Assembly: GCA_949317995.1 (NCBI GenBank)
Contig: OX439049.1
Span: forward strand, 11,594,395-11,658,394
Origin: Acholoe squamosa
Taxonomy: Eukaryota; Annelida; Polychaeta; Phyllodocida; Polynoidae
Length of the DNA: 64,000 nt
Direction: 5' to 3'
A program made the position numbers and the translations under genes. Below, one piece after another: positions 7,101 through 64,000 of this stretch. Numbering within the stretch: position 1 is the first letter of the stretch; every line of letters starts with the position of its first letter. A model generated the notes under the pieces. It worked only from the letters and a program-made list of their open reading frames with translations, searched no databases and was not told the DNA's origin.

Positions 7101-10100
7101 GGAAGGAGATATACACTGGTGATTGGATAGGTACTGCACAAAGTGGGATGAGACAGACCATTCCTCCACCGAGTGTTCCGATGTCCCCCGCACCCAGCAC
7201 AAATGGAGCCACTACCGCTTTAGTGGAGCTTGGAGTCGTTCATGCCACACAGGATTCATGCAGTGTGAGTGACAAATAGGGTATTCCCCTATATCCCCCA
7301 CCCCATCAAGTCCCTCTAACTGAACCAGGCCACCTGAGCCAAGCGGCAAGTCTGATGCTGCGGTGGACCCGGTGGTAAGAACAATACCAAATTGAACTAA
7401 TTGCTGAAATGACAAAAGCCACACTAGGACTCATACGGAAAGGAGGTATGATCACAGATACAGGCAGAAACATTTGCAAATGTACAATATAGAGGATGTT
7501 ATCACCTAAACCGCTTACAATTAGGTATGTGCCTACGGGAAGGTATTGTTTCTCGGTTTATCATATAAGTTTATATCAAAGCACATACTAGAATAATATA
7601 TATGAATATGCTTCAGTATTGTATAACACTGTCTTTCCACATCATTGAAACTGAAGGTAGCAAAGAGTGTAAACTTAATGGCTCTTGCCATGGTGACAGA
7701 TGGTCGTCACAGTGTGAGCCTAATGGACATGCACTAGAAGCAAAGTCATAAACATGTTTTGATAAATCTGTCATGACTAATGGATTCCGGGAAATGCATC
7801 ATAAGCATCAATGGGACCTTTCTCAGTCATGCACTCAAAAGACCTTATAAAATAACAAAGGGTACTTTCTAGAAAAACATGTAAGGGAGTGGTCAGCCCG
7901 ATGGTGCCACACCCAGGTGAAAGGTAAGAAAATGTCACCTTAGAGTGCTGAGCTTAGTATTTAAACCCGAGGTAGAAGATCATTATAGGGGTCTATTACT
8001 GTTTGGATATTGTATGTGTGCTGAGCATCAAATAAAGGACTTCAACTAAAAGTTACCTCTTGGATTTATCTGTATTTTTTAAGAGATGGATGGACATATA
8101 GTATTTGCTGAGTGATTCTACCACATGATTGATTATTAGGCAGTTTGGACTTTAGACTTAATATATTTACATATAAGCTTCTAGTTCCCCTAAAACACAG
8201 ACCCGCTTACATGCAGATTGGCATGCTTATGTTCCATTTGTATTTCTGGAGGGTGTTGTTCCTATAGTAAAAGGAAGAGCTGGCTCAAAATGCCCTTGTT
8301 TCCAGTCCTTTCTTTTCATGTAGCTATAACTTGTCCCTTTTGTTGCTCACAAGGGGTCATTCAAGTATGGTGATAAAAAGGCAGATTTGAGTAGGTACCT
8401 AGTTGGGAGGATTCAATCAGTATAGTATAGTATAGAGTGTGTGACATGAGTAGGTACCTGATAGTGCAGCTCTCTCTATTTTAAACAAGGCAGGTGACCT
8501 TTCAGACTAATGTGGTGAGTGCAAGTTGAACGGTGAAGCAGAGCATGACTTATGTTGAAAAGAGGGCACATACTGACAGCTCTATTTATCATAGAAGCAA
8601 CATTCTCCTGACCTAGCTTTGGGTGACCGCTCAAAATATTGGTTTTCATAAGGTGTCACTACATTAAAATCACTTGTACGAGAATAATTGTTCTCAAATC
8701 CGATTCAATCAAGAGACGGTATAAAAGATAAAGAAGCCACACACATGAGGGCACTTTGTATGAATTCAAGGTAAGACCATAAACATTTATAAAGGAATTA
8801 TAGCTGATCCAAGCCAATCTAAATGCATACATCTAGCATCTACCTCCTCTGGGTGTATTCAAACATCCAGGGTACCTTTCCTGGAGTGCAAATCCTTCCT
8901 CATTTGACTACCTAACTCTTAAATTCAATGTAAGTCATGTATTTGTATTTAAGGGCGTATTCCTAGTGTAGTATTGTAAATCTGGGTGAAGAAATGCAGT
9001 TAGAAACCCAGAAGTATCACACATAACAATTGTAGTTGGAGGTAAATACCATGTATTTTTGTAGGAAGGGCACTCTGTGGGAGCAGTGATTGGTCAAAAG
9101 TCAAGTTGAAAAAATGCTAATAACTATGAAGATAGTTCACATGCATAATATCCTTCAAGATCTGGCAAACTTTAGAATGATTTGATATGCCATGCACTAC
9201 CAATAGCAGGCATCTATATGGAGGTAGCGGTATGCATTAACAACCGTTGAGAATATTCCCTTCGTTCACCGCACACCTCTAAGGGGGCATTACATAGCAA
9301 CTGGTCCCCGTCATGCTGACTGTTACCAGTGCTTATATTGCAAAATATGATATCAAGCAATGGCGTCTCCACTGGGTAACCTGTATACGCAAGTACATGC
9401 TAGACAGGCATTGGTGTGGTGCTGCCCTCTTTCAATGTAGAGAGAGACTTGCTGTGCTCTATGTCTCATGTTAATGTCTTTGGAAGCTGTAATAACAGTT
9501 TATATGGGGATGGTGACCCCGAAAACGCTATACCCTACTCAATGTAGCATTGAGGGAATAAAGTATTGACTGTTATACAGGGGACTATGGAGCATTTCGG
9601 TGGAGCATTCAAGTTCCAATTTGACCAGTAGACACATATACCCCTTTGACACACTCAGGCCAAGAAAAATAAAAGGTGAGTTTCCAGTAACAAAGCTCAA
9701 AAGCTAGGGTCGGTAGGTCGGAATTTTTTATTTTTTTATTTTTTTTAAAACATTTATATAGGAAATATTAGGGCACATATCAATGGATGTATCAAATTCT
9801 TTGATTTCATTGTAAAATAATGATGCGAAAATGACAACTGTGAGAGAGGGGAAAAACACGAAAAGGATACAGGAAAAATCCTCAAAAAGTAATGAAATAT
9901 TTCTTTCAAAATATGAAAAGAAAATGAGACAGAATTCTTCAAAATCACAAAAAAAAGAAGTTTTTTGCCCCTGTTTTGCTAGGGACAGTCGGGTTACTGG
10001 AAACAAACCTTTTTTTATTTGGCCTCAGCATTATTATATACGCACCTCAGAGAATCAACGTACGTTGGGATGCACCTTGTACATGAAGATTTTGAACCTT

Positions 10101-12457: not shown

Positions 12458-15400
12458 AATAAACATCCCAAAGAAACAACACTTCGTCGCTACTCTGGAA
12501 CGGGACTAAAATTCTCCTCCTCCTACCTTATCTAGATTCTTAATGTAAGGTCCTGTGTAATGAAATGAGCTATTACTGACTAATCTTTAACCCTTCAAGG
12601 GCCATTGGTGCAATATGCTTATTGGTCAGCATGGTTGTAGCTCTAGCATTATCAATACTTCTACATTTCTGCATTATGTCAATACTGCGGGAGCATCTAC
12701 ATCAGCCCTGTAGCCTAGGGTCAGCAGGGTGCATGACTGTAACCAGAGACATACAGATATGTGTACCTTTATATCTCAGCTGTAACCTTGTGAGTTACTC
12801 GCTAGGGCTGTATTCATGCATTACACATAGCAATGGGCAAAATGCATTGTTATATTGACAAACCCTTGTGAGTCAACTCTGTCTCTAAAATATTGCTCAA
12901 AATTGCTCTGTCTATTCTTGAAGCGTGTTGGGGAATGTATATAACTTTGAAATTTAAAACAAAATCTTGATTTTATTTGCTTAATAGATTTAGGATTTTC
13001 AATGGTATCAATTTAACCTCATATGCCTTTTGGTTTCCTACACCATTGTCACTGTACTCTCACATTACCATTACATATCACAAGAGTGCATGAAGTGCCA
13101 GCAATTTGCCCTTTGGTGCTCATTTGTATAGACCTTATATAATGTTAAATTGGAAAGGTTTGGGCTAGGCCACATTTTGCATTAGACTTTTACACTAGAA
13201 GCTAGAATTTCTAGTTTAATTCCACAGAAACAAAATAATAGGGAAACGGAACGATATTGAACGAGAGAGTCCAGAGCCTTGGATCTACAGCCACTCTAGC
13301 AATTTGCTGTGGTGATAAGGGCTGTAATTTCTCAACGTAACTGCTGCATCTCGTCTATATACTAGTGTAATAATCTTAGTTGTTTTTTTTTTCTTGTATT
13401 TTTTGGCCAACTGGGTCACCGTTTCTAGGTAATTCTATCTGTTGAAGAAACGAGCAGTCGTCCTTTATCACAAACCAACCAACCAAAATAGGACCAATGT
13501 TAGGTAGATAACTATCTATAGGGTAAAACATTCAGCTTGAACATCCTGCTTAATCTGATATGTGTATATTAGTTTACATGTGTCGATATGTTATTGGGTA
13601 TGGTATTAGGCTAGTCACTATCCAGTCTCGACTGCACGACACTGAACTACAGAACAGTCTGGGGTAGAGCTATGGAGGTGCTGCAATGTTATTGTTTGGG
13701 GAGGGGAGTTTATATTGTCCAAGCTGACTACTGCTTAAAGCATAAGGAACACTCAATAAATTGGGTCTTATTTCATGCTTCTACTTTAGTTTTACACAGC
13801 TAACCATCCCGGCCTAGCTTTAGTGTAGGGCCTGTAATCCTACCTACCTACCCATATGTATGATAATTGTTTTAAAGTGTTAGTTCCACCGCCGTGGGTG
13901 GGGCGAATATTTTGCTAATTCGACTGATTTTTTTCCATACTTTTGCAACATCACTTATCGTAGGATTAGGGCTTTTCTGACTAATAGTACGCCTGTGGAC
14001 CCAGTGCTTTAACCAAACCCCTACTGCATTCATGATTGATCCCGTATCCTGTATCCTGGATCATTTGAAATGAGGTCTACAGTGATTTACTAAGGATTGG
14101 TCCAGTCCCTTCCCTTGTGGTGGAACTGGAAACTGGGCGATCGAGGCTGTATGTATGTCAATATGGGGGCCCCCAAGGGGACCCCCCCCCCCCTGATGTC
14201 ATGATGTCACCAGAATTCAAGGCTTCAGGGCACATATCACTTTTGTAGGGAAAATAGTATGTCTAGAAATTAAGCCATGGCTCAAACTTCAAGGATTCAG
14301 GTCACATATCATTTTTTTAGGGAATGGACATGTCGCATGTCACTTTTAAAAGGGTGCAATGTCAGAATGTCACCCCAAAATGGCCAAATGTCGCCATGTC
14401 GTTTTTGACCCCTTGGGGCCACAATACGGGGTAAGCTACATAGATAGATCTACAGGAAAGGACAACAAAAGAAAGGACAACAAAATGTCAATAAAATCTT
14501 TTCATTTTCCATGCCACGTCTACGGAACTTAACCCCATTTCATTGGTAACAAATTATTTGATCATCTATTTTTTTCTTCTGTTTAATAGTATATGGAGAC
14601 ACTAAAGTTTAATATTGTTATGGCTAGTATACATTTACATATAAATGTATGTATCAATCATGTGTCCTTCTCAAGAGCACACACATAGAACCTCGATGTA
14701 GGTTGTTTGGATTGTTGACACTACTGTTCATACTTTTATAACTGGATATGTTAATATCCACAGGACTGCCTACAGCTATCCAGTCTACATATCAACATTA
14801 ATAAAGCTATCAATCAACAATAAAGCTGAGAATTTAGCCACAATATGTTGCAGAAGAATTGGCACTGTTCAAGTTAACCCTCAAGAAGCGCATAGAAATA
14901 TATCACAAAAAAGTGGATCAACATGGTAAAAGGTACCCCCGCGCAACCCCTACCGGGCATACCTTTTACCGTGTTGATCCACAAATGCTCATTTGTCAGA
15001 GTGAGGCATAAATTTATCTGGCCGTTGTAATAGCAATTTACCGGTGCTGCATTTAAGCATCATGAAGACCAGACAGGGTTGATACACCCATGTAGGGTCA
15101 GCATGATACACTAATGCTTGGTTGTCATGATGCACCAGTATGACAACGGTGCATCATGACAACCAAGGAAGGCACCATGCTACCATTAAAACACTAAGGG
15201 AGTGATCATTTTTTTAACAACAGGGGGGGGTGGTGGGTTTGAGGGGGGTCAGAACTTTTTCAACCCCTTGACAGGGGGTGTCAAAATATTTTCAACCCGT
15301 CTGATGGGGGGGTCAAAAGAATTTCACCTGTTTTCAGTGGAAACCCCTGCATGTTACTATAGGTTAAAAGGGCATATTCGCGCGCAATTTTCGGCCCTTA

Positions 15401-23465: not shown

Positions 23466-24987
23466 AGTGATATCTCTATATCAGTAAATCCAAACAGCAG
23501 AAAATAATATCTCCTTATTGTATATATCTAGAAGTAGTCCTCCTCGTGAAGGGGGCAGTGTGCCTGCAGTATATACCAAACAATGTGTGCAGGACTAGGT
23601 GTAAAATGGTGTGTGTAGTGTAAGGGTGGAGGTGGTTTAAGGCCTGTTTGACTGTGTCTGTAACTCTCACAGTGTGGTCTCCACCCGCCAGGTGGTGCTT
23701 GGGGGTCACCTACTGGAGGAGATCTGGGGGGGGGGGGAGTGTGCGGGGTGGGGGTCCTCCTACACTATTACATGTATTGCCTTATGGCGCCTCCAGTTGA
23801 AGGCCCACACTGCGTCCCTTGGCAACCAGGAGCAGCTACGATGTACTACTACTAGGGGCCTATCGGTGGTGTTATAGGAATGCTGGCAGTTCTAGTGGTG
23901 TTTGGGTAGTATCACCATGTCTCCACAACTCTAGGTTGCTGGTCCTCTTCGCAAAAGTAAATAAATTAAAAGAAAAAGAAACAACAACAAAACAAGCAAA
24001 ATAAAAACAACAACAAAAAACAACAACTGTACACTGCTGGGAACGTCTGAAATAGGTTCGGGTAGAAAAGGCCCATGGGAAATAGTCTATAAGTAACCAC
24101 ATTATCAATCAGTAATTAGCCTTGACATAAGCTGTCATTCACCTTATGGTCGAGTTATTGATAGACTACCTAAATTGATGTGGCTGTGGTGGTGGCAGCA
24201 GGGGCTAAAAGTACATGTACATGTATTTCTTATCAGTAATAGGTAGCATAAACCTCTCACATAAGCTGACCAAATTTTAAGATTTTTAGCCTCATTTTGC
24301 TTTTAGATTATTCCCAAAATAAGAGAGATTTTAGTCACATTCTACTTGAAGATTATTCCTAAAGAGAGAAGTCGGCTCATGAGAGAGTTTTTTTAACCAA
24401 GTATATGTTACGTGTACAGTTTAAATGACTTAAATTGTACAAAGATTCGGTCTCTATTCGACCTGGTACGTACGCAATGGAGGAAGCTTGAAATGCTGAA
24501 TAGCAAACTCACCATTATTTCATTAATGCATCATGATGCCATGTGCATGATACAAAGAGTACTACATTAGTAAAGAATTCATTGGTTCTCTAAAGGGTTG
24601 AAGGCTTGGAGTCCAATGGTAGAACATTAATGGTGTTAGGTGGACTGATATAGCACTGTGGGGGTCTAACAGGATAACCCTGTGGAAATCTTGGGATCAG
24701 AGCTTTTATCATGTCCCTAGTAGATAGGACTAAAGGCCAGAGATAAATATGTATACAGTCAATCCATGACAGTGAGGGAGCCATTATCAACCAAACAGAG
24801 TTCTGACTTGGCGGATCATTTATTTATCTATTCATTTATTTATTCTTTTACATGATAAAGGTCTTTTCCAAAACTGTCTTTTTAAGGGAAAGTTTTTTTC
24901 CTGCCATCTTCTGTGAATGCAGTCGCAGTTGCACAGCCTGAGTTAAGACCAGATGCAGAGCCATTGCCTCAAGTTGACATTTCTAGT

Positions 24988-25580
24988 CTACCTCAGGTAG
25001 ATAAAAGAAAACTGTCCAATCAGAGGCCAGCACCTGCCAGCAATTATAAGTCATTATGGCAAAGGTCTCACTTGTAGTTTGAGGGTGTATTTGTTTATAT
25101 TAACTTGTAAAGACACACTGATATCTCAGTATTTGGGTGGAGTTATCCTATGCTACCTCAGGTAGATACGCGATGCCTGAGGTAGACAGAGGCTCTCTAC
25201 CTCAGGTACACAAAGTATGTCTTCTCTACCTGAGATAAGGGATCTCTACCTCAGGTAGACTAGCAACCACTTGTCTACCTCATGTAGACTAGCAACTGCA
25301 TATCTACCTCAGGTAGACTAGCAGAGCCTGCTCTACTTGTCTACCTCAGTTAGACAGCTGCTCATCTACCTCAGGTAGACTAACGACCACTTATCTACCT
25401 CAGTTAGGCAGCTGCTTGTCTACCTGAAGTAGACTTTGACCTGCTTTGTCTACCTCAGGTGGATTAGCAACTACTTATCTACCTCAGGTACTCTATGAGC
25501 TGCTTGTCTCCCTCAGGTAGACTGCAAACTCACTTGTTTACATGTCCTGAGGTACACAACTGCTTATTTACCTCCGGTAT
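24988..25580. repeat. Array of about 17 TCTACCTCAGGTAGA palindromes
   Basis: The odd palindrome CTACCT-S-AGGTAG recurs about 17 times in under 600 bp, mostly 25-40 bp apart. In the centre the copies are joined by a conserved linker like actagcaaccacttgt, so part of it is a degenerate tandem repeat of about 30 bp. Palindrome cores are better kept than linkers. Good copies lie near 24988, 25153, 25240, 25301, 25363 and 25447. There is no open frame across it. I found no terminal inverted repeats or target duplications. Confidence 0.85.
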
Positions 25581-26451
25581 ACTGCGTCCTCTCCTGGGCT
25601 ATAAATTAGAAAGCAATCCCAGCCTTGGCTGAACTGTGATTGGTTGATTGGAATAACACTATGTAATCCTACCAAAATGGACCTTATACGTCAATGAGGA
25701 ATATCTAAGAAATATGCCTGCCCCCCCCCCCCACATTGTCTTTTGGTATTTCGAAAAAAAAAATATACCGTTTAGGAAGTATGGCGAAAATTTAAAATCT
25801 ATGGAAATTCCAACCACGTTATCTATCCCCGCCATTCACCTTAAATGGTTGAGTTGGTGCTTGTGTCTCCACCTGGTGTTTTTACTCCACGCCCTTCAGG
25901 TTGAACACCGTTCTGGATGGCGTTATTAATCTTGATTGGTAACAGTTTGACCAGATATACATATGACAGCATAGCTTTCAGCAAAATGTAAAGAGATAAG
26001 ACCAATATGTCTCAGTCAAATTAATGGTATTGAAGTATTTAAGGTTAGCCCATGATTGACTCAAAACAGAAGGTGTTGATTAAGTCCAAAATCCACTCTA
26101 GAATCCCCCCCCCCCGGCCCGCCATAAAAACACCCCCCACCCCGAATATAAATTATTTCGAATGCTTATGGAAAAGAAAGAAAGATAATGTTAGAATGGG
26201 TTATGTTTTGCTAGCTAGGACTGGGTAACGCAAACATATCTTTGAGATTATAACATTTCAACTCGTACATCAGTATATCAGGTTTTTAATTGACATGATC
26301 TATAAACCCGGGGTAGATTCATACATAAGAAAGGCTTCTTCACTTGGCATCTTAAAGGGTTCAGCTGGTTCAATAGTTTCTTACCATAGTGATTCATATA
26401 CAAATAGAAACTCCTCAAAAATGGCTTCAAATCTGTAATGTCTTCAAAATA

Positions 26452-26796: not shown

Positions 26797-27652
26797 AATA
26801 AGTGAGTTTACGAAGTATAACTCCGGGTAGAACTGATGTGAGCAGATCTATGTGTGGAATGGATCCAGGCCCTCTAGTGTCAGTCTGCTGTATTCTGTGT
26901 CCTCTTATCTCACTAGTGCCCTCTAGGTGAGAACGCCAGAACTACTCCACCATGTCAAAGACAGGCATACAGCCGATAGGTATACAAATAGAAAGATAGA
27001 GGAGATACTACTAGGTTAGATGGTCTGAGAGCAAGGAGGCAACCTTACAATGATGAAGGGTCGAAAGTGGACATACTACAATATACCCAGCATTTGTGGA
27101 TGTAGTAGAGAAATTGAAGATTACATTACCTCTATCCTAATTAACACATTTTCAAAATTCATGAAACCTATGGGGGCCCCTGAGCTCTCAAACTCCTTTT
27201 ACCACAATGCGGGGATAGGAGCGTCTTTCTGAAGTTTTAGAGAAACTCCTCCTCCTCCTACCAATAAGCGGCAACTTATCTCTGCAAATGCCCCTGATGC
27301 AAGAACGCATCATGCCCACTGGCGGTCATGATGCGTTCGCCAGCACTTCATTGGTGCATCATGACGACCGATTGGCATGATGCCTCTAAAGGATTAAAAG
27401 ATTATGCGCGGTGTATCATGGTAGATAGGGAGGGTCAGGGACAACATTACCATTGGGACTAATAAAGAGAAGTATATGGGTCAGGTCGTCAGAAAGTGTA
27501 AGATTCTGCCCTTGAAGGGCCTTTAAAATTAATTTTCTAATTCCTTTATATAACCTTAACACAACTGTGAAGGGACTTCCGCTCAACTCAGAAAACCAAA
27601 AAATACCGATCTAGCCCATCCGGTTCCATTTTTATTGCTTGTTTTGTGTCAT

Positions 27653-32013: not shown

Positions 32014-32356
32014 AGTCCCGAGGCAAAGAAGTGATGTCCATAACATGTTATTAAAATGGATTTTTAGAGCATGTAATGATGTCTCACATTGTACAATACT
32101 GACCTATTCGTAACTTGCAATGCCTTATTAATTTTATTAAGTGCAAGACACACTAGGGGGCCAAAGAATCAATGCCAACTGTAAATATCATTTTCCACTA
32201 GACGTGGCATAGGGCCTACCTTAATGTTCGTGCCCAGAGATTGTCATTTTAACCCTTTAGGTTCTAATTATGCATGAATGCATCATGTCTTCTTCATGTA
32301 TCATGCTGACTCAATGGGGTTGATAGTCTACTGTTGATGCATTCCCAGAGTCGTGG

Positions 32357-32416
32357 CATGATGCTCCAATGAAGTGCTGGCAAGCAGCCTCGTAAGCACC
32401 TCATTGGTGCATCATG
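32357..32416. repeat. CATGATGC foldback unit
   Basis: The left part catgatgctccaatgaagtg pairs with the right part cacctcattggtgcatcatg around a short loop. This is the standard complete form of the dispersed CATGATGCA family. Confidence 0.7.
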
Positions 32417-33384
32417 ATAATCAATGTTCACGATGCACTCCTGCTATAATAGTATTAAAACCCCTTACAGGGTTAATGCCCAGAGTTCTGTGCAGTGGAT
32501 TGTACGGTATTAGCTTCATAGAGAACAGGTATATAAATACAGGTGTTCTATTGGTATAGTACCCAGTACACTCTCTCTGATAAGTGTACCACTAGGCTAG
32601 ATCTCAGTTGGCAGAAGTTATAGCATCTCCTTGAATCCAGGGTGCGTCTTATACACAGGTCCGTGATATATGTGAGCTATTATGGTATATCTCATGCACC
32701 TGGTATAATGATTGGAAGATGCATTGGTGAGTTAGTTGCTATTCCGACCTAGCGGGATAGGGGTGGCGCCATAGTGTCTAGCTGAAGCTGGTCACCAGCA
32801 TGTGCTTTACACTGGTTTCAGGGTACAGTTTTGTAATACCTGGTGGGAATCCACTCTGTCCTAACCTACATACTAAATTATTATTAAGACTCATTAATTA
32901 GCACATAGTTGGCTTAATAATATCAATACAAGTACAAGGGTATGGTTAGTGTGGACTACCACTCATCACACCTCCAGGTGTGGAGTTTTCACACATACAG
33001 GTGTTAAGACTCACCCATGTATAGAGTGTCTTCTGACCCCTGCAAGCTCCAAATCTCATGAGAATGCATGTTAATTAGGCCTTAGCTGGTGGCCGCAGTG
33101 CAGGCACACCTGTAAGCCCTACCAGCATGGTACTAGCATCCACTGATAAACATGCAAAGTCGGTATAGTGTTGTCATCACGCAGTATACATTCGTCGAAT
33201 TAATTGATTTAATACACTCCTGTGGACTTCTAAGAATGATTAGCCACAACAGAATCAATGGAGAGGTATAATTGTGAATCATAAACATAAATTTGCATGC
33301 ATCATGCTACACATAATGGGATAGGGTTATACTATGAAATATGGTGTCAAAGGTCTGTTAATATTAGCCCTAGAATCCTTGAAA

Positions 33385-33472: not shown

Positions 33473-33643
33473 AAGCGCCCAAAGACATGTGCCAATAAGC
33501 CAGGCACGGGGATGCAGCAGAAAACTAATATAATCTGACTGCCCTGTGTGAGAGGGTAATCGTGAGTCCTGGGTTCGCCTTAATCCCACTATGAAGTCTA
33601 CATTCCAATCCAGTCTACAGGAGTACCTCATACACAATAGTTA

Positions 33644-33708
33644 ACATGATGCACCAATGAAAGGCTGCTGGGTCAGTCTCCTCACCAGTACTTCATTGGG
33701 GCATCATG
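33644..33708. repeat. CATGATGC foldback unit
   Basis: The left part catgatgcaccaatgaaagg pairs with the right part gtacttcattggggcatcatg. It has the same plan as the unit at 32357 and a similar spacing between arms. Confidence 0.7.
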
Positions 33709-33784
33709 TCGACTATCACCAACCCTCTTGGGGTGCATCAACTCCATTCGGTCGACATGAAGTATAAATGTAGCCCTGGCTATA

Positions 33785-39070: not shown

Positions 39071-40756
39071 ATGGACGACACGACATGCGTCTCTGCGGAG
39101 GTGAAGTTGGTAATACTGGGGGACAGTAAGGTGGGGAAGACGTCCATCCTGTCCCAGCTCGCCATGTTAGGCTACAACCCTACATACACCCCCACCATGG
39201 GGGTGGACTATGAGTGTACCTTATTACAGGTAAGAGGCAGTTTTTAACTACCTGGTGGGGGGCACTATTCTGCTTAAGCTTAAACCTTTTTGGTCGGAGG
39301 GGGCACATCTACTTTTGAATTAAACCCCTCTTTCACAAATCCTGGGTCACCCACCACGTTTGTGCTATACATGGACATGATTTGGAACAAGTAATAAAAG
39401 ATTAAGTAATAAAACTACATGTACATATATATCTCCCTATTGCATCATGAACAGAGCGGATTTTACTGTACCAACAAATTGGTTTCTCTGGAGAAGAGAT
39501 GCTATACACTAGTACTCCATTAGTATGGTGAAAAGAATTCAAGGTATCTTGAACTTATAGTCTATGGTTTAATCTGGAACTTCTTCTTGTACATGTATAT
39601 TGTTTTTTTTTTCTCAAAAAAACCTTGAATGAATCTCAATCGTGCTATAGGCTATGAGCTTTCCTGTATTCCAGCATCAACCACAAATACATCACCCTGA
39701 AACTATTTCATTGTTATCTTACAGGTGGATGGCAAGATGATCCGGCTGCACCTTTATGACACATCAGGGTTACCCAGCTTCCTCTGGATGGCCAAGAACC
39801 CGGTAGAAGAGGCTGATGGCTTCGTCTTTGTCTATGATGTGAGCGAGGAGAAATCTTTCCGCAACCTCCACCAATGGCACCATCATACTCAGCGCTTTTC
39901 CAAAGATCGCTCCCTACCCAAGCTCCTATTGGGCAACAAGAGCGATTTACGACATAAGCAGATGGTGGGGACTGCTCAAGCGAGGGAGTACTGTATACCC
40001 GAGGGGATGCTGCAGGTTGAGACGAGTGCTCGTCTTGGGCGATGCATTCATATGGCTTTTAGCCTGTTGGTGTCTGAGATCCTCAAGCATCGACAACTGG
40101 GAACTGTCAGAGTACTGGGTGCTCCTTCGGACATGGCTATCTTCAGCACTGAAATGTTTGAGGAACAGCCAGCTATTGATGATGACATGAGTGTTGTGAA
40201 GCGAGACTTGGAAGATTACACTCACTTGTTTAAGATCATGGTTTTGGGGGCACCACGAGTCGGAAAGACTGCATTGAGATTCCGGTTTTGCAAAGATCAT
40301 TACACTTCAGAGTATATTGCAACAGCTGGGTTTGATTATGCAGTCCGATCACTTCTTGTGGATAATGAGCGAGTAAAGGTTCAGATCTGGGATGTATCGG
40401 GTGATTCAGTTTATGACCAAACCCGGGATAGCTACATGAAGGGTGCTAATGGCTTTATTATTATGTACGATGTAACCAACAAAGAATCCTTCGTCAAAGC
40501 TGAAATGATGCTCAAGTATCTCAGTCTGATTGGCTTGGACTCTGCACCTAAAATGTTGGTGGGAAATAAATGTGACTCCACCAAAAAGAGAAAGGTGGAC
40601 TTCTCGACTGGCAAAGACTTTGCTGATGGCTGGAGGTTGCCTTTTGTTGAAGCGAGTGCGAAGAATTCGACTAACATAGATGCAGCTGTGATGAGGATAG
40701 TGTTAGCTTTAAAGAGGCAGATGGCACCATGGAAGAAACTATATACCTGGTCATAA
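39071..40756 (+). CDS. Tandem Rab/Ras-like double GTPase
   Basis: The coding exons are 39071-39229 and 39725-40756, phase 0, with acceptor ttttcag before the ATG, donor gtaaga and acceptor cttacag. They encode 396 residues. Domain 1 has the P-loop GDSKVGKTS (17-25), switch I TPTMGVDY, G3 DTSG (65-68), G4 NKSD (124-127) and G5 ETSA (152-155). Domain 2 has GAPRVGKT (228-235), TAGFDY, G3 DVSG (276-279), G4 NKCD (334-337) and EASAK (362-366). So both should bind guanine nucleotide. The catalytic Gln after G3 is Leu in domain 1 and Asp in domain 2, which in Ras/Rab proteins weakens GTP hydrolysis. The C-terminus (LYTWS) lacks prenylation cysteines, so the protein is probably not lipid-anchored that way. 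It differs from Miro by lacking EF hands. A 5' non-coding exon is expected because an acceptor lies just before the ATG. The role is unknown. Confidence 0.9.
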
Positions 40757-45900: not shown

Positions 45901-48115
45901 AGTCTCGATGTGAAAAAGATCATTGTCTATTCTCTAAATATCATAGCGTAGCCCATTAGGGCCTCTGATGCATCCATTCATCACTGCTCCTTGGTCTGCA
46001 TGATGCATGAATGCATATAGCCCTGGGCTACATTAATGCATCATGCCGACCTTTGTGAATATTTATAGCAACCCTGTATATAGTGCCGTTCCGATGTATG
46101 AATGCAGCCCTGGCAGGTTGCTCACTTGGGCTGCATTCTATGGATAGCACTCATGCATCATAATGGCTAATGGCCACATTGCAAATGGATGGTTCTAAGT
46201 AGCAGGGTACTAGCTACTCACTTTCAGTACTCCTGGTCGGTTGGTCGTTCCCCTAGCAATTAAAAGGAAGATTATATTTTATCAAAGTCTTTGTGTCTTT
46301 TTCATAATGTGTTATTGCCCAGTATTTCTCTTCCTAAATAATGATGACAGTAGATAATGTCAATATAATCTCTCATCTGCCACTTTTTAAATGAAAGATA
46401 TGCCAAAAGCCTGATCCAATTATATCTTGTACTTAAAACTTTAACTTAATTACCTCTCCCTCATCTCCCTTTTCTTTCCTGCTTGCCAATGCTGCTTTGA
46501 TAGCATCAAACCTTTGGTGAAGGACCTCTTTCATGTCCTGAGAAAGCAAAATTTAATTGATAAAGAATTTACCATTGAAAGTAAGATTGATACAGTTTAT
46601 AAACCCAGATATGCGACACAATGACAAGAATTCTACCCGGGTCTTTAATGCTACCAGTTATGCCTTTCATTTGCTTCAAATACTGGGATATGCAGGTTTT
46701 ATTAAAGTGGCGGCGCTGTTAGCTGGCAGGTATAGTAAAAATATCAGTTTGTACTAGAAAATCCCTGATATGTTCTCTGGGTATGTATTGGTGGTGTGCA
46801 CATGTACATAAATCAACCTTACATTAATAAGAAATATCCTTTATCCTATAAAAAGCCTAGTCCTGCTAAAATAATTCTGTAAGATAAAGAATTCGTGAAA
46901 CAAGGGATTCATGGTGATAGAGTTTTGGGTATATATTAAACAATGGTGTAGAATAAAAGATTTTGTTGGAAAAAAAATTCTGTGGGATAAGGGATTTTGT
47001 TGGGTTAAAGGTTTTGTGCTTTTAGCCACCTTTGTAGGATAAATGCATTTTTTTTAGGATAAAAGCCCCACATCCCTCTCGTTTCATACCATTGAGAGGG
47101 CACACATCCTCGTGTTCCACACATCCTGGGTCTACCTCTGGTGATGAGGGATGTGGTAAATACGAGTCATCCTATAGATGGTAATATGTACAAATTATAC
47201 GCTAGGATAAAGGGTCACAATCTAACTCATCAAATATCATCAGTATGGATCCTTATTTGACATCTTTGTTCTAGATAGTTTTCTTTCTGTTTCCTTTCAA
47301 AATAGAATCATATTCACTGTTTGTTAATTCTTTTTAGATTACAAGAACGACTACCTGGAGTGCCTACATCCATATGTCATGCCCACAATATGAGGAAAGT
47401 AAACCTCTTTTTTTACGGCATGATGGCTCTCTTGGCAGCATTTATAGATATAGCTGACAGCTCTAAGTCCAGCCTCAGGCTTGCTCCTGTTTTGTTGATA
47501 ATATCTTAATCATTTTTTAAACAGTTTAGAGTTTAGTTTAGATGAGTACTTCCATGCAATGCATCGGTTATTGATGCGAAGAGTTTTGAAGGGCATCAAT
47601 GCCAGATGGCCAGTAGGGCCTTTGGTTTAACAATGAAGTGCCTACCATGTCATTCTACATTCAGGCGTGATGATATCCCACGAGCATAAAGCATAATTTT
47701 AACATCAACATTTGATAGCTTAAAGTTCAAACAGCAAGTTTATACTACAGAACGGTATAGCTATACTTACCGATATCTTCTTCTCTAGATCATAAAAGTA
47801 ACTGTCCAACCGGTTCAGCCGAGCGTCCACTCCATTCAGTCGTGTGTTCAGCTGAGTGTCGGCTTCGCTTAGTGCATTCAGTCGTGTGTTCAGATCATCA
47901 GTATCAGTTTGGGAGTGCCGTCTGTCTATTTCAGCCTTCAGCTTGTCCAGGAGGGCCTGTCTCCTCTGTAGAGCTTTGTCATCTTTGCCCAGGTCAATTG
48001 TGGAATCCACAGCACGGACACTGCTACCCTTGGCCTGGACCATAGCGGTGTTTGGCAGGGTAGAAAAGACAGCGAGTACTACAACTAGAACGGAGCTTAC
48101 TTTGGGAGAACCCAT
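42932..48115 (-). CDS. Secreted fibrinogen-related protein 1 (coiled coil plus fibrinogen C-terminal domain)
   Basis: Exons: 48115-47771, 46537-46454, 46252-46222, 45359-45226, 44634-44367 and 43167-42932. The phases are 0, 0, 1, 0, 1 and the total is 1,098 nt, 365 residues. All introns are GT/AG. Residues 1-28 are a signal peptide (hydrophobic VLVVVLAVF core). Residues 70-115 hold LNTRLN heptad repeats, a coiled coil likely to oligomerise the chain. The fibrinogen domain is 155-365, a usual length, with PKDC, VYCEQELDGGGW, FGELTGEFWLGN and a terminal WWYRGCHLANLNG. The calcium-type DVDRD (303-307), the second cysteine pair (C313, C326) and the Cys-His of the ligand pocket are present. C290 replaces the usual Ser and may be unpaired. 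There is an NYT glycosylation site. The family (ficolins, tachylectins, FREPs) binds acetylated sugars on microbes outside the cell. That role here is inferred. Confidence 0.9.
43805..43872 (-). pseudogene. tRNA-derived SINE fragment in the last intron, copy 1
   Basis: On the minus strand, a B-box region (GCGGATTCGAGTCCCGC) and tRNA-Gln-like text are followed on the plus-strand side by tctatacttgg and gtacagatcagtca. The same context follows copy 2, so a unit of about 150 bp is duplicated. The 5' tRNA end is missing here. Confidence 0.55.
44187..44257 (-). pseudogene. tRNA-Gln-like SINE head in the last intron, copy 2
   Basis: This 71-nt block on the minus strand has an A box (TAGTGTAGTGTTTAGCA), a loop with GGACTCTGG as in tRNA-Gln(CTG), and a B box (GGGTTCGTGTCCC). 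Six terminal bases pair (CCAGAT with ATCTGG). It could be a tRNA pseudogene. Duplication with its flank points to a SINE. Confidence 0.55.
45810..45940. repeat. Long perfect hairpin in intron 3 of fibrinogen gene 1
   Basis: The inner arms (45834-45867 and 45880-45913) are exact complements over about 34 bp, from tcacatcgagactgtctg through cctataatgcac. Outside them, the pairing continues imperfectly (caatagacaa against ttgtctatt) for another 25 bp. The loop is 12 bp. The lack of mismatches in the inner arms suggests a young element or selection on pairing. Confidence 0.8.
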
Positions 48116-48162
48116 GATGAAGTGATGGTCCCATTATGTGTAGAATATTCTGAGTGTACTCA

Positions 48163-49747: not shown

Positions 49748-49815
49748 GTATCAACAGGGTAAAAGGTACGCCCACGCTCCCCCTCGCGGGTGTACCTTTT
49801 ACCGTGTTGATCCAC
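49748..49815. mobile_element. 68-bp hairpin MITE (GTGGATCAAC family), copy 3
   Basis: Same arms as at 6234 and 14913, with a small deletion in the left end (gtatcaac). The loop is cccacgctccccctcgcggg. It lies between the two fibrinogen genes. Confidence 0.75.
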
Positions 49816-52860: not shown

Positions 52861-55629
52861 TTAAGGTATTTTCTTCAACATCATCCTTGTGCTCATCATA
52901 GACACATCACTTTTCCACCGCAACCACATCATGCCACTATATTCAGTAGACCCATACTTGCCATTTAGATTTGAGGTGTAACTGCTTTTGTACCACCATG
53001 CTCCGTGATAGGTGGTGGCTACAGACGCTGCGGAAGAGTCATTATCAACATCCATTGTACTAAAGCTGGCACCATTATGGTAGGTCAGGCTGTCCCCTGA
53101 AAAGGGACAACTTTATTAGTTTACTTACAGTTAGTAAATCAATAATGGATGACTAGTTGCTTACAAATTTCCTTCTTCTGGCATTGGTTTGGCAATTTAG
53201 AGCATAGTATGATTATATAGTATAGAGGATCCTTGAGATACTTGATAGTGAGAATTTTAACTCACTTAAATAGTCATAAAAAAGACATAGTGCAGGGATG
53301 ATCAATTGATATGCTTAACATTATACATCAAAAGGTAATGAGTGAAACATTTAAGATCTGTGGTGGATGTGAACTCACCAGGGGGTATCTCTCCAGAGTA
53401 GCCTCCCACAGTCAGCCTGTACTTCTGAGTCTCATCTGCTATAGAAAACCTGGCGTAGTCTGCGTATTTCACCTCCCCTTCAGGACTTGTCAGCTCAACC
53501 TTAAGCTTCTGGTCATGGTGTTTAGTCAGGAGGTGAATGTTGGTATTTCCAAGCCAGAATTCACCAGTCAGCTCCCCAAATCCTGAATTATATGAATTCC
53601 AGTCTTTGTAAAAGTCGACAGACCCATCTTTGCGCTGCTGGAAGACCTGCAGTTGTAATGGAAAGATTAGAAGAAGATGCAGGGATGATAATTCACAAGG
53701 GGTTATCCAAGTCTCTGAGATCCACAGTGCAGAAATTAGGACCAGCCAAGGGCATTTCACTCCCTATATTGAAGAAGCAAGGAAAATGGCTCCACTAGAC
53801 CATTACTGGTTTGAGATATGAAATCCCAGTCATAAGTTTAAAGTTTTTTTCTACCCAATGGTACTAAAATGGAACCAGTGAACATTTTCATTAAACAGGC
53901 CACTATATATGATGAACCTAGTAATTTATTGAATTGAACGTCAAGTATCTGCTTATTTCAATTTAAATACAGAGAGGAAGTGATACATACAACCCAACCA
54001 CCTCCATCCAGTTCTTGCTCACAGTACACTTCGATTGTTGTGTTTGGTTCTGGGTTGATTGTGTAGACTCCTGATGATGTGTGTCCCATATTGTAGGCCT
54101 TCTGACAGTCTTTAGGCACTTTGTATGGAGGAAAACAATAGTATTTGTTGTTTGATGTGTCAAAAACAATTGAGTCCATGTTGAACCCCTCAGTCATTTC
54201 ATTTATAATGTTAAATTCTTTGATCTTATCGGCTGTCATTTTGGATAACCAAACCTATCTCAAGAAATACCAACTAATTGAAAATCAATAATGACAGGGT
54301 ATACAGCATGCACAGGGAGACATTGTTACATGCAATTTGCATGCATTCACCTTCTGTTGTACCCAGCTTCATTTATCATAAATTTGCATTTTGATTATTT
54401 AAGTTACTCACAATCAGGTGTCATGGATGGCTGGATTTCAGGACAGACCACCTGCAATTTTAAAGAAGCTCAGTTTTGTTATTCAAGTTTATATTGTGTC
54501 ATTTACATTTCCTTCACCTGTCTTTACACATTTTGCACACTTACCTTGTTGAGTGTGAAAATGGACATGCAAAAAGAATATATGGAATTCATAAATCTAT
54601 TTATACAATAATCAATCATATTGAGGAAATTCAGTTTAAAACTTGTTCAGTTGCCATGGCCACCTCAACCAATGTGACATAGTTAAGATGGCACTGGAGA
54701 CCGATTAATATACTGACATATTCTTTTTGTTTTGTGCCTGCCACCCTAAGTTCCTCCTTAGGTTCCATTGTATCCAAGCATTGCTTAAGGTACTCCTCCA
54801 TGTCCTATGAAAAAGGGCATGGATCATTATTGAAATAAAGACAATTTCAAAACATTGCAATTCTCCATCAAGTTTAATGTTTTCTACCTTTAAAACTCAT
54901 TAAATGTTGTTTTAAACGCAAATATAACATTAAAACATAGACTCCAAAAATCTTGTCTCAACGTTTGTGACATTGAAAATATATCTAACAACATACATTT
55001 GTGACACGATCTGCGAAAAGGGGTCTTAGTGCAGGGGGCAATAAGACCCCCTTTCCCAGTACATGTCACATTTTTAAAAAATTGAGAAATGTTGCAAAAT
55101 AAATCTTGGAAATTCATTGAAAACGCTTTTTGAAAATTAGAAAATTTCCAAATGTTCCAAATGTGAAATGAAAAAAAGGGTTTCCAGGTGGCCCTCACCT
55201 CCGAGATAGGTGGGTGAACAAAATGAGTGAGGATATTGATTTACTTACAGACATCATGGTCTCTAAAGCATCAAACAGGCTGTCTATCCTGTTCAGACGA
55301 GCATCTACTACAGTGAAACGTGCATCTACCGCAGTTAGTCGTGTGTTTAGTTGAGTGCCAGCATCAGTGAGATGTACATTAAGATGAGAGTCGGCTTCGC
55401 TCAGTCCATTTAGACTTGTGTTAAGGTCTGTGTCTCGTTCAGTCATCCACTTGTCCAGGAGGTCCTGTCTTGTTTGTAGAGGTGAACATTGATTGCCTTG
55501 TAGTGTTATGTTCATGTTGGCTTCAGCAGATCCACCAGTACCCTCAGACTGGACCACAGTAGGCCTCGGTAGGGTAGCAGTCAGACCTAGTACCACAACT
55601 AAAAGCATGCTTACAGTAGGACGTACCAT
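52861..55629 (-). CDS. Secreted fibrinogen-related protein 2, paralogue with altered ligand site
   Basis: Exons: 55629-55249, 54804-54718, 54451-54412, 54118-53991, 53646-53379 and 53096-52861. The phases are 0, 0, 1, 0, 1 and the total is 1,140 nt, 379 residues. I start at 55629 because the signal peptide (MLLVVVLGL core) begins there, as in gene 1. An upstream in-frame Met would place polar residues ahead of it. Coiled-coil heptads (LNTRL, VDARLNRIDSLFDALE) fill about 85-127. The fibrinogen domain is 171-379, with PKDC, VYCEQELDGGGW, FGELTGEFWLGN and DVDND (317-321). The second conserved disulfide is gone: V327 and S340 stand where cysteines belong, and Tyr341 replaces the pocket His. Exons 5 and 6 (268 and 236 nt) match gene 1 exactly in length. 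The donor of exon 2 (gtcagt) is the weakest signal. The family role is recognition of sugars outside the cell; ligand preference here is probably changed. Confidence 0.88.
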
Positions 55630-58600
55630 GGTTAAATAAACCAATCTTCTGCTTCTTGGCCAATTGTACACGGAAGAATGCCGCTTTAAGGGCGATTGTT
55701 CAAATAAACATAATCTGATCTAATCTAAAGATCTGCTGCTAGTGTGTGTTCTCTGTGTGTTATCTTCCTCCTGCCTAGTAGACAGGATAGAGTGACCCAG
55801 TTAACTTGCTATAAAAAGCAGTCATATGTCACCACCACAAGGCTCAAGGAACCACTTCTGCATACTCCCAAATCTGTTATTATTTTGTGATATCTGTTAA
55901 TTCAATCAAAGTTAGGCCTTACTAATTGATCCTCTTACATTGAATAAGTGGCTTGTCATAATTCATGCAACAGGGTCACATTTTGAAGTTTCAAAATTAT
56001 AGATTATATAAACAAATGCACCCCTTTCTGTCATTTTACTCACATAAGACAACTGACTTTTATGGAACTTGGCATGTACTTTCGACTGATTTTGTTGGAG
56101 CATGTCACACATCTGTAGAACAGGATGAGTCACATATGTACACTGGCAACTTAAAATACATCCTACGTCATGGGCATTGATACTGTTGTGTCAGTAACAG
56201 TAGGGGTCTGTATCCTGGTGGGGAGGGGGCTTAGTAACTGTTTGAGGATAGGTAGGCATACAAACAGCAAAACAATAGCACCCATTCTATTTTAAATAAA
56301 TGTTATTATGGCATTTGACACACCCCTAAAATAAGGATATTTGATGAAAATGCTAAGGGAATGTGTCATGTAGACGAAGATTCCTCTCTTCATTTATCAA
56401 TCAATACAGAATTGGCAATGGTGTGATTTCAAATAAAAGCAAGACCAGAGCCAAAATGGGACCCTGATTGTACTCAGTTCTAAAAGCGACTGCCCTTCGA
56501 TTTCCCTCTTTTTGCATTGAATTGTGATTTCCCACACAGCTAAAAATATTTTTCTTGATTTAAGAAAATAAGATAAATTATCTTACGTGGCGGACAAAAC
56601 TACTATTTAAAAAAAAATTAAAAAATCTTAAAACTGGTAGTTTTATCCATCAGGTAAGATTATTTAAGATTCCAAGAAAATTATTTTTAGCTGTGCACCA
56701 TTTATGAGCCCTCTAAACCTGGTGTGTTGTCAAAACCTACCATTACTACACTGAAACTGATTGTCAAACCCCTACCTATATATTGCAAACAGTTTAGGAT
56801 GTCTCTTCTTAGAATTCCTTTTATCTAAAAAAAAAAAAACAAAAAAAAAACTGAAAACTGAAAGTTAAACTTTTAAGAAATGCCTCAATGGTTCATGTTC
56901 CTTATTCATCATTATGGGCAAATGCAGTGCTGGTGAATATGTATGTGGTTAATGGGCACGATTCGTTGGGATTTGAGCTGGCAGGGGCCTCAGAATTATT
57001 ATAGTAGCATATGCAAAAGCTTTTTTTTTAGGTGTATACTACAGGTATTTGGCCATAACATCCACATATAGGGGTAGGTTAAATATGAAAACTGAACTTA
57101 CACAGCCGCGGCAAAGATGGCATGTCTTAGACTGCATAGAAACGGGGTGATTCGTCTAACGCCCTAACCTTGTGCAAAGTGGGATACTTTAATACCATTC
57201 AATATTATATATCTAACTTTAATTTTGTGGATGATTATCAAAATAGAGACCGTACCTTGTAATATGGACCATAGAACATTTACATTGGCTCTGATTTCAA
57301 CCATTTTCTAGTACGAGAGAAAATGTGGTGATTTTGTGCAGTAGAATGAGAACCCTGCATTTCCTACACCCCTTCTTATTATATAGCATAGCTGCTTGAG
57401 AAATTGGCTTATCTGATCTACTTATACATGAATAGGTAGCGCATAAGCATAGGTTCAACGTGGCACATCGATATAAGGGCCACCTTCAAGCATCAGCCCA
57501 CTTCAGCCCCTGGGAAGGGTGTTAGATGAATTGCCACGATAGGTGATTCGTCTTACGCCCTAATCCTCCCATAGCCTATGGTCGATAGGGTATCTTTACG
57601 CCATCCATTCTCATTTCCAACCTTAATTTTGTCGTTGTTCTTCAAAATATAGACCTTGCCTCTTGTTTAAGCATGGGGACTATGTGGCAGAAAGGGATAT
57701 GGGGCCAACTTTTCCAAAAAATTTCAGATTTTTGGGAAAAAAAATCAATTTAAAGATAATGTTCTAGTGTTGGTCGGTAATTGGGTGTACAACATTGGGG
57801 CACTATCATTCCTTCCATATATATTCAGTTTTTAGGTGTAATGGTATCCTTGTTTAACATAGAAGGTCCAAAAACAGGGCATTAGACGAATTGTCATGGT
57901 ATAGCTTATATACATAGTTAAAGCTACATAGGAGGGTTAAGACCAAAGAAATGACTAAACACGGGCGTGAGATGATTCTCTCCATATATTCCATTATGAG
58001 AAGAAGACTTTTGAGCAATAGTTGATTTATCAACTGGGAAACTGTTTTATGAACGACATACAAAGGGTGTGACACCTTCACTCCTCTTAATAATTAATAT
58101 TATCATTGTTGACTTCATCGTTGTCATAATTTCATTAACATTATTCTTATTATAATTATCTTTGTTGTTATAATTGTACAATGGGTGTGTGACACCGATA
58201 CTCTTCTTAATAACTAATTACATGCAGTATGACTCCCCCTTCCCCACCCAGCTTCTTCTATGTACAATGGGTGTGTGATACCTTCACTCCTCTTAATAAC
58301 TAATGTTATCATTATGACTTCATCATTCTTATCATTCCATTCTTATCATTATTATTATAATTATGATTATTGTTATTCCATTATTATTCATTATTACTCT
58401 TCTGAATAACTTGCTCTGCAGAATTTTCTTAAAAACTAACATTCCAATGTTAATATAGTTGGGCGTTAGATCATTCTCTTTCCGCTGTACAAAAATTCTA
58501 AGGGTAATCGGATGGTTCTAACAGGTCTTAAGGACCTTTCGGGCATTAGACAATTCTCCCTATATGGAACCTTTAGTCTTCTACAGCTAGTTAGCTAAGT

Positions 58601-61291: not shown

Positions 61292-61841
61292 TTATAATAT
61301 TAAGTTAGCACATGTATAGAATTGTTTTTTTTTCAATTTCAGTAGACTGGCAAATTGGGTCCTGGGGCTCTTTTCGGGGAACCGATGCTTCCTCTTCTCC
61401 TTCTTGCCGTGTGCATGGTAGCTACTGGGTGGGGATAGGAGGGCAGAACAGGGGTACTGGAACGGGTTCCGGAACGGGTACTGGAATGGGTGCTGGAAGA
61501 AAAGGCAAATTAGTTTGAAACAAAACACAAAAGAACATGTTCATGTTTAATCTAATTAGAATAATTATTATGGAATAAAGATAACAGGTAAATTGCACTT
61601 TTTGGTCAATATATATGTTCTATAACAAGTTGTGTACATTATTCCTTGAAATTTTTCACTTATAAGAGGGTAAAAACATATTATTTCATCGATTTCTTAC
61701 CTTTGCTGCAGCTTCTCCGGCCGGCGAAGTCACTGTCCAGCGTCTCTCTCCATTGAGTTCATAAATATAACACCAGACGGCGCACGGAATAGGTAGTACA
61801 CTTTCAAACCACCAGGCGTCACACGCTTCACTGGGCGTCAC
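61292..61841 (-). CDS. Candidate two-exon coding fragment, unidentified
   Basis: Exon A (61841-61701) is open on the minus strand with DAWWFESVLPIPC, AVWCYIYELNGERRW and SPAGEAAAK, ending at a strong donor (AAG|gtaagaa). Exon B (61492-61292) follows a strong acceptor (ccttttcttccag) and reads HPFQYPFRNPFQYPC, then a Lys-rich part. The phases agree (0). Exon A runs directly into the foldback element at 61842. On the far side the frame continues for about nine codons to a stop, so the element split an open stretch. It may belong to the decayed transposon-like unit downstream. I do not recognise a domain. Confidence 0.3.
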
Positions 61842-62867
61842 GCAGGATACAACTTGTTACATCGGTCTATGCCCTGGGGGCATTCAGTGCCGCCCCCTGT
61901 GGTGACGCGTATATTTTCGGGACTGCCGCGCGGAATTATGCATGCCCTGAGGGCATATTGCTGGCCCTCTAGAAATCAGCAATTTACCAATGCTAGTCTA
62001 TGCCCTCAGGGCATTGTGTATCGGCCCTCAGGGCATATGCATACACAGGACCATTCCTGACCTCTGGATCTAGACGTTCTGGCATTGACCAGAAAAACAT
62101 GCACATGCCCTGAGGGCAACATACCCTCAGGGCATATTTCTTGCTTCTTTAAAGCATGATTGACCAAAGCATGTCCTCCAGGCATGTAGTACAATTCCAC
62201 AAGTTGTACTTGTAGGCTAGCTACAAGAAGGGCCTAAGTATGCATACCCCCCAGGGCATATCTTCCTTCTCCAGGGTTCCTTCTACAGTCTACAAATGTT
62301 ACTCCTCAGGGCATAAAGTTGATGATAAATGAAGTGATATTAAATAAGGGTATGCCCTTGGGACATCCATGCATGCCCTCAGGGAATATTGGACTTTAAG
62401 CTAATCAGGGGGGAATTAGGAGCCTACTAGGCTGGGGCACTCTCCAAACTTCGACTCATATGACTATCAGTGCATTTCCTGGCGCCATTCCCTGGGGGCA
62501 TCATCACACATCATCCATATTATGGATGCCCCAGGGGCATAGTACAGAGAACAATGGGGGACAATGCCCTCAGGGCATTCATAGTAAGGATAATCGTACA
62601 TGCATAAAAAAAATTGACGATGCCCTGGGGGCATCCATGTACTAAACGATGCCCCCGGGGCATAGTCCAATACCCTATATAGGCCTACATGTCCTGGGAG
62701 CATCATCCTTACCATGGATGCCCTGGGGGCATTTTCCCAGACTTGCCATGGGGAGTGTGGGAAAGGGCACGCCTCAGCCACTGCTGTCCGCGTAATTTTC
62801 GCATCACTCCCACGCGGCAGTCTGTAGGCCCCCAGGGCATAGTCCGATGTAACAAGTTGTATCCTGC
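61842..62867. mobile_element. 1,026-bp foldback element with 9-bp target duplications and palindrome array
   Basis: The ends GCAGGATACAACTTGTTAC (continuing atcgg) are inverted copies, identical for 24 bp and then matching to about 40 bp with one change. GGGCGTCAC is duplicated exactly at 61833-61841 and 62868-62876. Inside are about 19 copies of the odd palindrome ATGCCCT-S-AGGGCAT, perfect or degenerate, roughly 50 bp apart. Good examples are near 61944, 61998, 62103, 62563, 62618 and 62647. One copy is built into each terminal repeat. Subterminal cgcgta-attttcg blocks occur near both ends. There is no transposase frame. A 9-bp duplication with long inverted ends fits Mutator-like or Merlin-like mobilisation, which is inference. 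Confidence 0.9.
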
Positions 62868-62876
62868 GGGCGTCAC

Positions 62877-64000
62877 ACAATTCGCCCCGGCTAGTAATAT
62901 CTATGGCTGTACTGGTAACAGGTAAATGCCCTCTACAGGTCTTATACCTTTAATATGTAGGTACTTATTGATAATGATAATAATAAGGATAGTTAAATAT
63001 AAAAACCCTAGCAGTGATACAGGTATATATATATGAACAGGGCTTTAGACAAATCGCCCATTGACATAGGCCTAAGACTACCCCAGCGTGCTTGCAGTCA
63101 TATGTACTGCTCTATGTTAGATCGAGGCTCCCAATTTTTTTATGCATATACATGTATAAGTTATGCTTTTACTTGACATATTCCATTAGTCCATGTAGCA
63201 TAATTATATTAGAGCTATACCCCCATCTTTGGGCGTTAGACGAATCGCCTCGGAAATTAACCAAACACGTTTTGGCTTGCAGCATAATAATAAATCAGTC
63301 TATACATGGCCAAATGGTCTTAAAAAATTCTTTAAATAATTCTAAACATATCTAGAAATATATATCTGCCCTCCTGCCTTTTAATTTTTTTTGTCTGTAT
63401 ATGTTGAAGTTTTGATTTTATCAATAAAAAACGAGTATTTCTGGGTAGTTTTAGGCCCTCACTCCCAAAATATGCCTCCGATATATAGAAAACCAGGGTT
63501 CCCCATGTAGCTCTAACCCAGGGCTATCAGAATAAAATATAATAACACATATAGGTTCCATTTTGAATGATTTATTAAGCACATAAGGCAAAATAGCCAA
63601 ATCCCGACGAGTCGTGCCCATTGACCATACAGGTACTCACTAGCAGTGCATTGGTGCATCATACTGGTGCTTTGTGATTACTGTATCAAAAAAATCTATG
63701 AATAAGCATGACACATGAATGCATTAAAACTGATTTTCCAATGCTACATTTATACATTTATGATCACTTATATGTGCACAATGTATTAAAAGCACTATGC
63801 ACCCCTTAGAGGGTGGACATAGGGAAGCATAGCAGGGTTTCACAGTTCTACATGAGCCTACTTTCAATATTTCTAACACACATAATGGTGTATCTGTCCT
63901 GGGGTCAAAGGTCATATGGATTCCATGAAAGACTCATATGAGTATGCTCCAAGACGGGTTGCAAATTTTAAGTTTTATCCTCATAATACATCGAGATTGA
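62877..64000. other. Right end of the window, no coding exon seen
   Basis: AT-rich DNA with two copies of the GGGCRTTAGAYGAAT motif (63040 and 63231) and a CATGATGCA fragment near 63,640-63,720. The small open frames look random. Confidence 0.55.

Follow-up and report, generated by a model that had tools for sequence, protein, structure and literature searches.

The window (the whole 64-kb stretch of DNA analysed here) holds a non-autonomous element of 1,026 bp with no recognised coding capacity (61842..62867, plus strand). The element is bounded by two copies of the 9-bp target-site duplication GGGCGTCAC (61833..61841 on the left and 62868..62876 on the right), which are identical at 9/9 positions, as the original prediction had claimed. 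The left terminal inverted repeat (61842..61887, plus strand) reads GCAGGATACAACTTGTTACATCGGTCT, then palindrome unit 1 at base 28, and the right one (62822..62867, minus strand) has a palindrome unit from base 28 counted from the end. The claim that the terminal repeats are identical for 24 bp was also borne out (61842-61865 and 62844-62867). Aligned ungapped, the inverted arms of the element reach 47 nt at 94% identity, one base beyond each end included, and the likeness of the inverted ends spans about 47–55 bp of the 1,026. FB/TU foldback elements share inverted ends and repeated motifs with this element, but their long inverted arms make up most of the element; with arms of only 47–55 bp, the element falls outside the FB/TU class and the 'foldback' label it had been given does not hold in that sense. 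The longest stop-to-stop frame (62467-62949, minus strand), which extends beyond the right end, had no Pfam match. Elsewhere in the window, an open frame at 39701-40753 has two stretches that match the Ras family, an exon with a fibrinogen-type domain lies at 53302-53763, and the frame at 55195-55719 resembles that at 47720-48133. The Ras-type and fibrinogen-type domains, together with an AP-2 domain found elsewhere in the genome, suggest animal DNA.

Nineteen units of the 15-bp palindrome ATGCCCYNRGGGCAT are arrayed along the element (61869..62840), with one unit inside each terminal repeat. The units start at 61869, 61942, 62000, 62022, 62105, 62121, 62171, 62245, 62300, 62352, 62373, 62487, 62526, 62564, 62620, 62649, 62689, 62718 and 62826; allowing up to four mismatches gave 20 units, and one overlapping four-mismatch unit at 62474 was dropped. 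About 19 copies had been predicted, one in each terminal repeat, and shuffled controls exclude chance as their origin. Palindromes with an arm of 6 and a loop of 0–3 number 18 in the element, against a mean of 1.4 and a maximum of 8 in 500 first-order shuffles. Sites matching ATGCCCTSAGGGCAT with at most two mismatches occur 13 times in the 64-kb window, 13/13 within the element, against a mean of 0.14 and a maximum of 2 in 100 shuffles. When the whole window was scanned for palindromes having similar copies within 1.5 kb, the top two matches were this array (18) and a second array, here spanning 24988-25568 (16), and 10 shuffled windows gave at most 5. Four more matches exceeded the shuffled maximum (11, 9, 8 and 6); these are AT-rich or of the ACATGT type, and two fall within AT microsatellites or adjoin them.

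Within the element, similarity among units is 77% in a single orientation and 81% in the best orientation. The 15 bp flanking them are 26% alike (33–35% in the best orientation), near the in-element random control of 25% (32%). Because these flanks are so close to chance similarity, the role in replication slippage that had been proposed for the palindromes is unlikely. A neutrally decaying tandem array would spare neither units nor spacers. Mutations in the window units lie mainly in the left arm, a bias that probably reflects shared descent, and helical phasing of the units in this array was not significant for three periods (p 0.11–0.81).

Copies, duplications and longer relatives

Using the element as a query against its own genome (1.48 Gb), we obtained 823 first-look candidates and scored 40. 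All 40, the best of the 823, were near full length and 96–100% identical, 39 of them from base 1 and one from base 35. Thirty of the scored copies were taken as loci with flanks, and the other 10 served for element structure. Comparison of flanks for 8–10-bp duplications, a check that had been suggested, revealed exact 9-bp duplications at 16/30 copies, all 16 sequences being different, and one-mismatch duplications at three more. The 11 copies without a 9-bp duplication comprise six inside a longer related element, one with a shortened match and four others with at least two duplication mismatches (L008, L017, L019 and L021). The exact and different duplications support the predicted non-autonomous DNA transposon. 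The 23 short copies differ by 0.5–1.9% from their majority, a figure biased low because these are best-scoring copies; this small divergence indicates that the burst is recent, as had also been foreseen. It is close to certain that the element belongs to a mobile, recent, non-autonomous family that makes 9-bp duplications.

Ends occurring only here, or long flanks shared between copies, had been named in advance as evidence against transposition. A degenerate end pattern that includes the first palindrome half has 1,019 exact matches in the genome, against 0 for its reversed control, so the ends are not unique. One long flank is indeed common to six copies, as segmental duplication would have it, and at least 15 of the 32 flank matches between loci concern these six among the matches listed; but the common flank is the longer related transposon that hosts them, with its own ends and its own duplications. 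Given also the exact and different duplications at 16/30 copies and the shuffled controls that exclude chance, we rejected segmental duplication and regard an origin by either process as vanishingly improbable. Two loci show nesting or clustering of insertions: one copy (L004) is inserted amid further units of the same motif, and another (L015) has a second element start, 84% identical, 14 bases beyond.

Mutator/MULE elements make target duplications of about 9 bp and, together with Rehavkus and Merlin, form the superfamilies with 8–9-bp duplications; hAT duplications are of 8 bp and those of CACTA of 2–3 bp. We rejected a hAT assignment because 9 bp, not 8, matched in 16/30 copies. The duplication of about 9 bp agrees with Mutator/MULE, without being specific to that superfamily, and its length is like that of Rehavkus and Merlin as well, but no transposase was seen in this family. 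The family resembles MITE-like non-autonomous transposons in its high copy number, terminal inverted repeats, target duplications and lack of a recognised transposase gene; it differs from them in size (0.9 to about 3 kb, once 6 kb) and in the 15 to 40 binding-site-like units of its elements read whole. Viral and prokaryote sequence collections contained no exact counterpart of the end's first 19 bases, and the viral collection no match to a two-unit pattern. Titles and abstracts of openly licensed literature held no description of this element, and the wider literature may hold one.

Six loci led to longer related elements. Two of these, of 2,101 bp (L034) and 2,102 bp (L032), have exact duplications. 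Among eight loci inspected, the duplication was exact at three (L032, L036 and L037) and not exact at four (L033, L035, L043 and L045), and at L038 the right end was not found. The longer elements differ in their tips, keep GCAGGA..CAACTT........GG.CT and then have the palindrome; the longer element also has repeated blocks with paired units. The end-pattern matches listed all lie on contig C1, where ten end pairs include 7/10 with exact 9-bp duplications, across four tip kinds. Four end pairs were taken whole and 3/4 have exact duplications, the 739-bp pair being the exception. Related elements of 0.9–6.0 kb likewise make 9-bp duplications. A 16.6-kb pair on C1 was rejected as a single element, its 9 flanking bases differing at 5 places.

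One member (L047, G000:C1:43525500-43531580) measures 6,028 bp and has the exact duplication TGATGATCG. Its 20 units (at most three mismatches) are confined to bases 28-876 and 5526-6001, with none between. The two coding pieces of this member had no Pfam match. One piece (about bases 4729-5550) is a broken part of a separate multicopy gene family, which it matches to residue about 125, the element's own sequence following thereafter. This gene family has open frames of 408–451 aa at several other places, and at the 7 other family loci that were examined, about 1.5 kb to each side is free of such ends and units. These loci lend no support to a transposase role for the piece, for which capture or insertion is the best reading. 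The search for an autonomous partner sharing the ends, a check that had been suggested, was negative: the window element and the relatives read yielded neither a transposase nor any autonomous element with such ends.

The palindromic site

We pooled 94 units from six elements, some of which are related over stretches, and excluded the portion of the long element in which the short one recurs. These units were chosen by the 12 arm positions only, with at most one mismatch, and all of them read ATGCCC-Y-N-R-GGGCAT: position 7 is C or T in 94/94, position 9 is A or G in 94/94, and position 8 is any base. Were positions 7 and 9 as free as position 8, the probability of this outcome would be ~1e-57, a value that units related by descent make far too small. 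A looser set of 116 units (at most three mismatches, scored with Y-N-R) contains one G at position 7 and one C at position 9. In the window copy, Y-N-R fits 18/19 units, and 13/32 changes fall at positions 7 and 9 (p 0.0002). The Y and R are non-complementary in 37/94 units, and the choice of T or C is nearly independent of that of A or G (p 0.08), which argues that the constraint is not base pairing across the centre; a hairpin or cruciform requirement was rejected on this ground. The unit looks like a dimer site that reads ATGCCCY twice, on either side of one free base. Judged by their sequence, alike amid unrelated spacers and with a strict Y-N-R centre, the palindromes are very likely sites for a dimeric protein, in line with the original suggestion of binding sites. 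Sites of the p53 type were rejected, their half-sites being, as we take it, oriented the wrong way. EBF sites were rejected as well, because the EBF1 and EBF2 motifs are given as CCC-NN-GGG with a two-base spacer (PMC7887226), whereas the spacer here has three bases and the arm is TGCCC.

Two further features of the site are its variation between copies and its position. Across 24 short copies, variation is lower at palindrome bases than at spacer bases (56/6829 versus 203/16533, p 0.006, counts raw as to base composition). Palindrome variation is not lower in all 30 copies (95/8539 versus 246/20665) or in the 6 long copies (5/1710 versus 13/4132), and evidence for constraint on the palindromes within the recent burst is mixed. 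The sequence GCAGGnnnCAACTT alone marks 35 distinct ends, from loci that were collected with unit-containing queries and are not a blind sample, and 32 of these ends have a unit (at most three mismatches) that starts at base 28 in 32/32. The others are two ends with a four-mismatch unit and one that is unrelated.

Could the palindromes have dispersed themselves, by templated copying, gene conversion or hairpin-mediated insertion, and have no binding role? We consider this unlikely. Units alike amid unrelated spacers would fit such a process, as would the common flanks of some segments (family D5) and the longer element's repeated blocks with units in pairs. However, a hairpin mechanism predicts complementary centres, which 37/94 units lack, sites matching ATGCCCTSAGGGCAT (at most two mismatches) are absent outside the element in the 64-kb window, and the end units stay at base 28.

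Possible readers of the array

What protein reads the sites? Each end of the element opens with a 27-bp tip, the 15-bp palindromic site ATGCCCYNRGGGCAT begins at base 28, and the interior is mostly more copies. A dimeric DNA-binding protein would contact the half-site ATGCCCY on each side of the free base. We infer that the main reader may be a transposition protein of the family itself, provided in trans, and that this protein would dock on the end site and the array and gather both ends into one complex; short copies would survive by keeping the docking region. Host AP-2 probably binds the array too, since the motif fits TFAP2 sites. We would give an even chance to this reading, a recent non-autonomous transposon whose array mainly docks its own transposition protein. 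Several observations favour docking: (i) the unit stays at base 28 even in ends whose tips have diverged; (ii) the units of the 6-kb member sit at both ends, as docking arrays would; (iii) the units are alike amid near-chance flanks, with Y-N-R in 94/94; and (iv) palindromes vary less than spacers in the 24 short copies. The docking reading is weakened by the absence of this lower variation in all 30 and in the 6 long copies, by the failure to find a transposase or an autonomous element with these ends, and by the units running through entire short elements, not just subterminally. Docking arrays in other transposons are usually subterminal, and CACTA and hAT elements have subterminal arrays of transposase sites. 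Like them, this family repeats one short motif many times close to each end; it differs in that the motif is a 15-bp dimer palindrome found throughout the whole short element.

Alternatively, the palindromes may be TFAP2 sites that capture a host factor: AP-2 would make the element accessible or active in germ-line cells, and the element would parasitise it. We hold this view tentatively. TFAP2 ChIP-seq motifs include ATGCCCTGAGGC and SCCTSAGGSCAW (PMC7887226), functional TFAP2 forms include GCCN3/4GGG (PMC2890567), and the form GCCN3GGC is also given for AP-2 (PMC9461128). Listed TFAP2A sites, GCCCTGGGG, GCCCCAGGG, GCCCCCAGG and GCCCCCGGG (PMC2890567), have cores equal to cores in the element. 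A listed TFAP2 form is present in 16/19 window units, and the strict Y-N-R centre also speaks for capture. The motif SCCTSAGGSCAW has 11 exact strand matches in the element and 0 in the rest of the window, and with one mismatch 23 against 2. The AP-2alpha motif ATGCCCTGAGGC, by contrast with what capture would suggest, has an exact match in neither the element nor the rest of the window; with one mismatch it has 7 strand matches in the element against 1 elsewhere. The element lacks the textbook AP-2 forms GCCN3GGC and GCCN4GGC. A 13-bp SELEX form of the TFAP2 site, TGCCCYNRGGGCA, would presumably fit the unit fully.

The genome has a single AP-2 locus, which is a further point for capture: the AP-2 domain gave 5 matches from 11 candidates, all above the cut-off and all at C2:41557197-41583565, and a multicopy AP-2 domain was not seen. 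Three of the five matches run over a stop, as exon ends may. TFAP2 is described as opening chromatin (PMC9159589), and TFAP2C is placed in mammalian germ-cell precursors (PMC12066098) and on the transposon LTR5_Hs in germ-cell-like cells (PMC9128956). The likeness to LTR5_Hs lies in the possible use of a host TFAP2 protein, the sites there being in a retroviral LTR and here, by the tens, in a DNA element. Against capture, the place of the unit within the ends is fixed at base 28, as expected of a transposase site, and the AP-2 match was spotted post hoc, not predicted. Because the palindrome of the second array family is unmatched by AP-2 motifs, which also counts against capture, we rank docking of the family's own protein slightly above capture of AP-2. 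If docking on that protein is correct, the AP-2 fit would be a coincidence. In its fullest form, possible if somewhat doubtful, the capture reading would make the family a mobile AP-2-site array with one site built into each end, in which AP-2 opens or marks the element where transposition counts, insertions plant AP-2 platforms, and the second family does likewise with another 15-bp dimer site.

High-copy elements with 15–40 near-consensus dimer sites each would provide regulatory platforms ready for use, and sinks for protein. With AP-2 as the reader, the family would be a clear natural case in which to test whether a DNA transposon exploits a conserved developmental factor of its host, and how genes are rewired by such elements. 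Should the reader be a transposase, competition among short copies for that enzyme may be explained by the array. In either case the question of the reader can be put to a direct test, given the strict motif, its fixed place at base 28 and the recent burst.

A second array family and other repeats

The second, separate array (24987..25581) consists of 16 units of the 15-bp palindrome TCTACCTSAGGTAGA and belongs to another, older repeat family. A query spanning window 24786-25648 gave 260 genome candidates, of which 40 were scored. Besides the query itself, the matches listed are 65–89% identical and most start near query base 186–210 or later, suggesting that this family is older and has one end near window 24978. 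Three relatives of 631, 711 and 731 bases (L079, L080 and L081) have 17, 21 and 17 units, and L079 has inverted ends with two units each. The centre CCTSAGG is common to both palindrome motifs. The motif SCCTSAGGSCAW has 0 matches in the second array with at most one mismatch and 1 with at most two. Helical phasing of this array gave p 0.02–0.18. That two families have differing array motifs makes element-specific readers likelier than AP-2 alone.

Other repeats also lie in the window. The stretch 5675-8157 is element-like, with inverted arms in three aligned blocks (134–259 nt, 90–96%) and a possible 6-bp duplication, ACTTTA. Short hairpin repeats, ATCAACACGGTAAAAGGTAC...CCTTTTACCGTGTTGATCCAC, occur at 6238-6303, 14917-14982 and 49750-49815. 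Sequences of the GCATCATGACGACC type, dispersed and often paired and inverted between about 500 and 46000 (for example at 27337, 32348-32436 and 33636-33728), are probably another small hairpin repeat.
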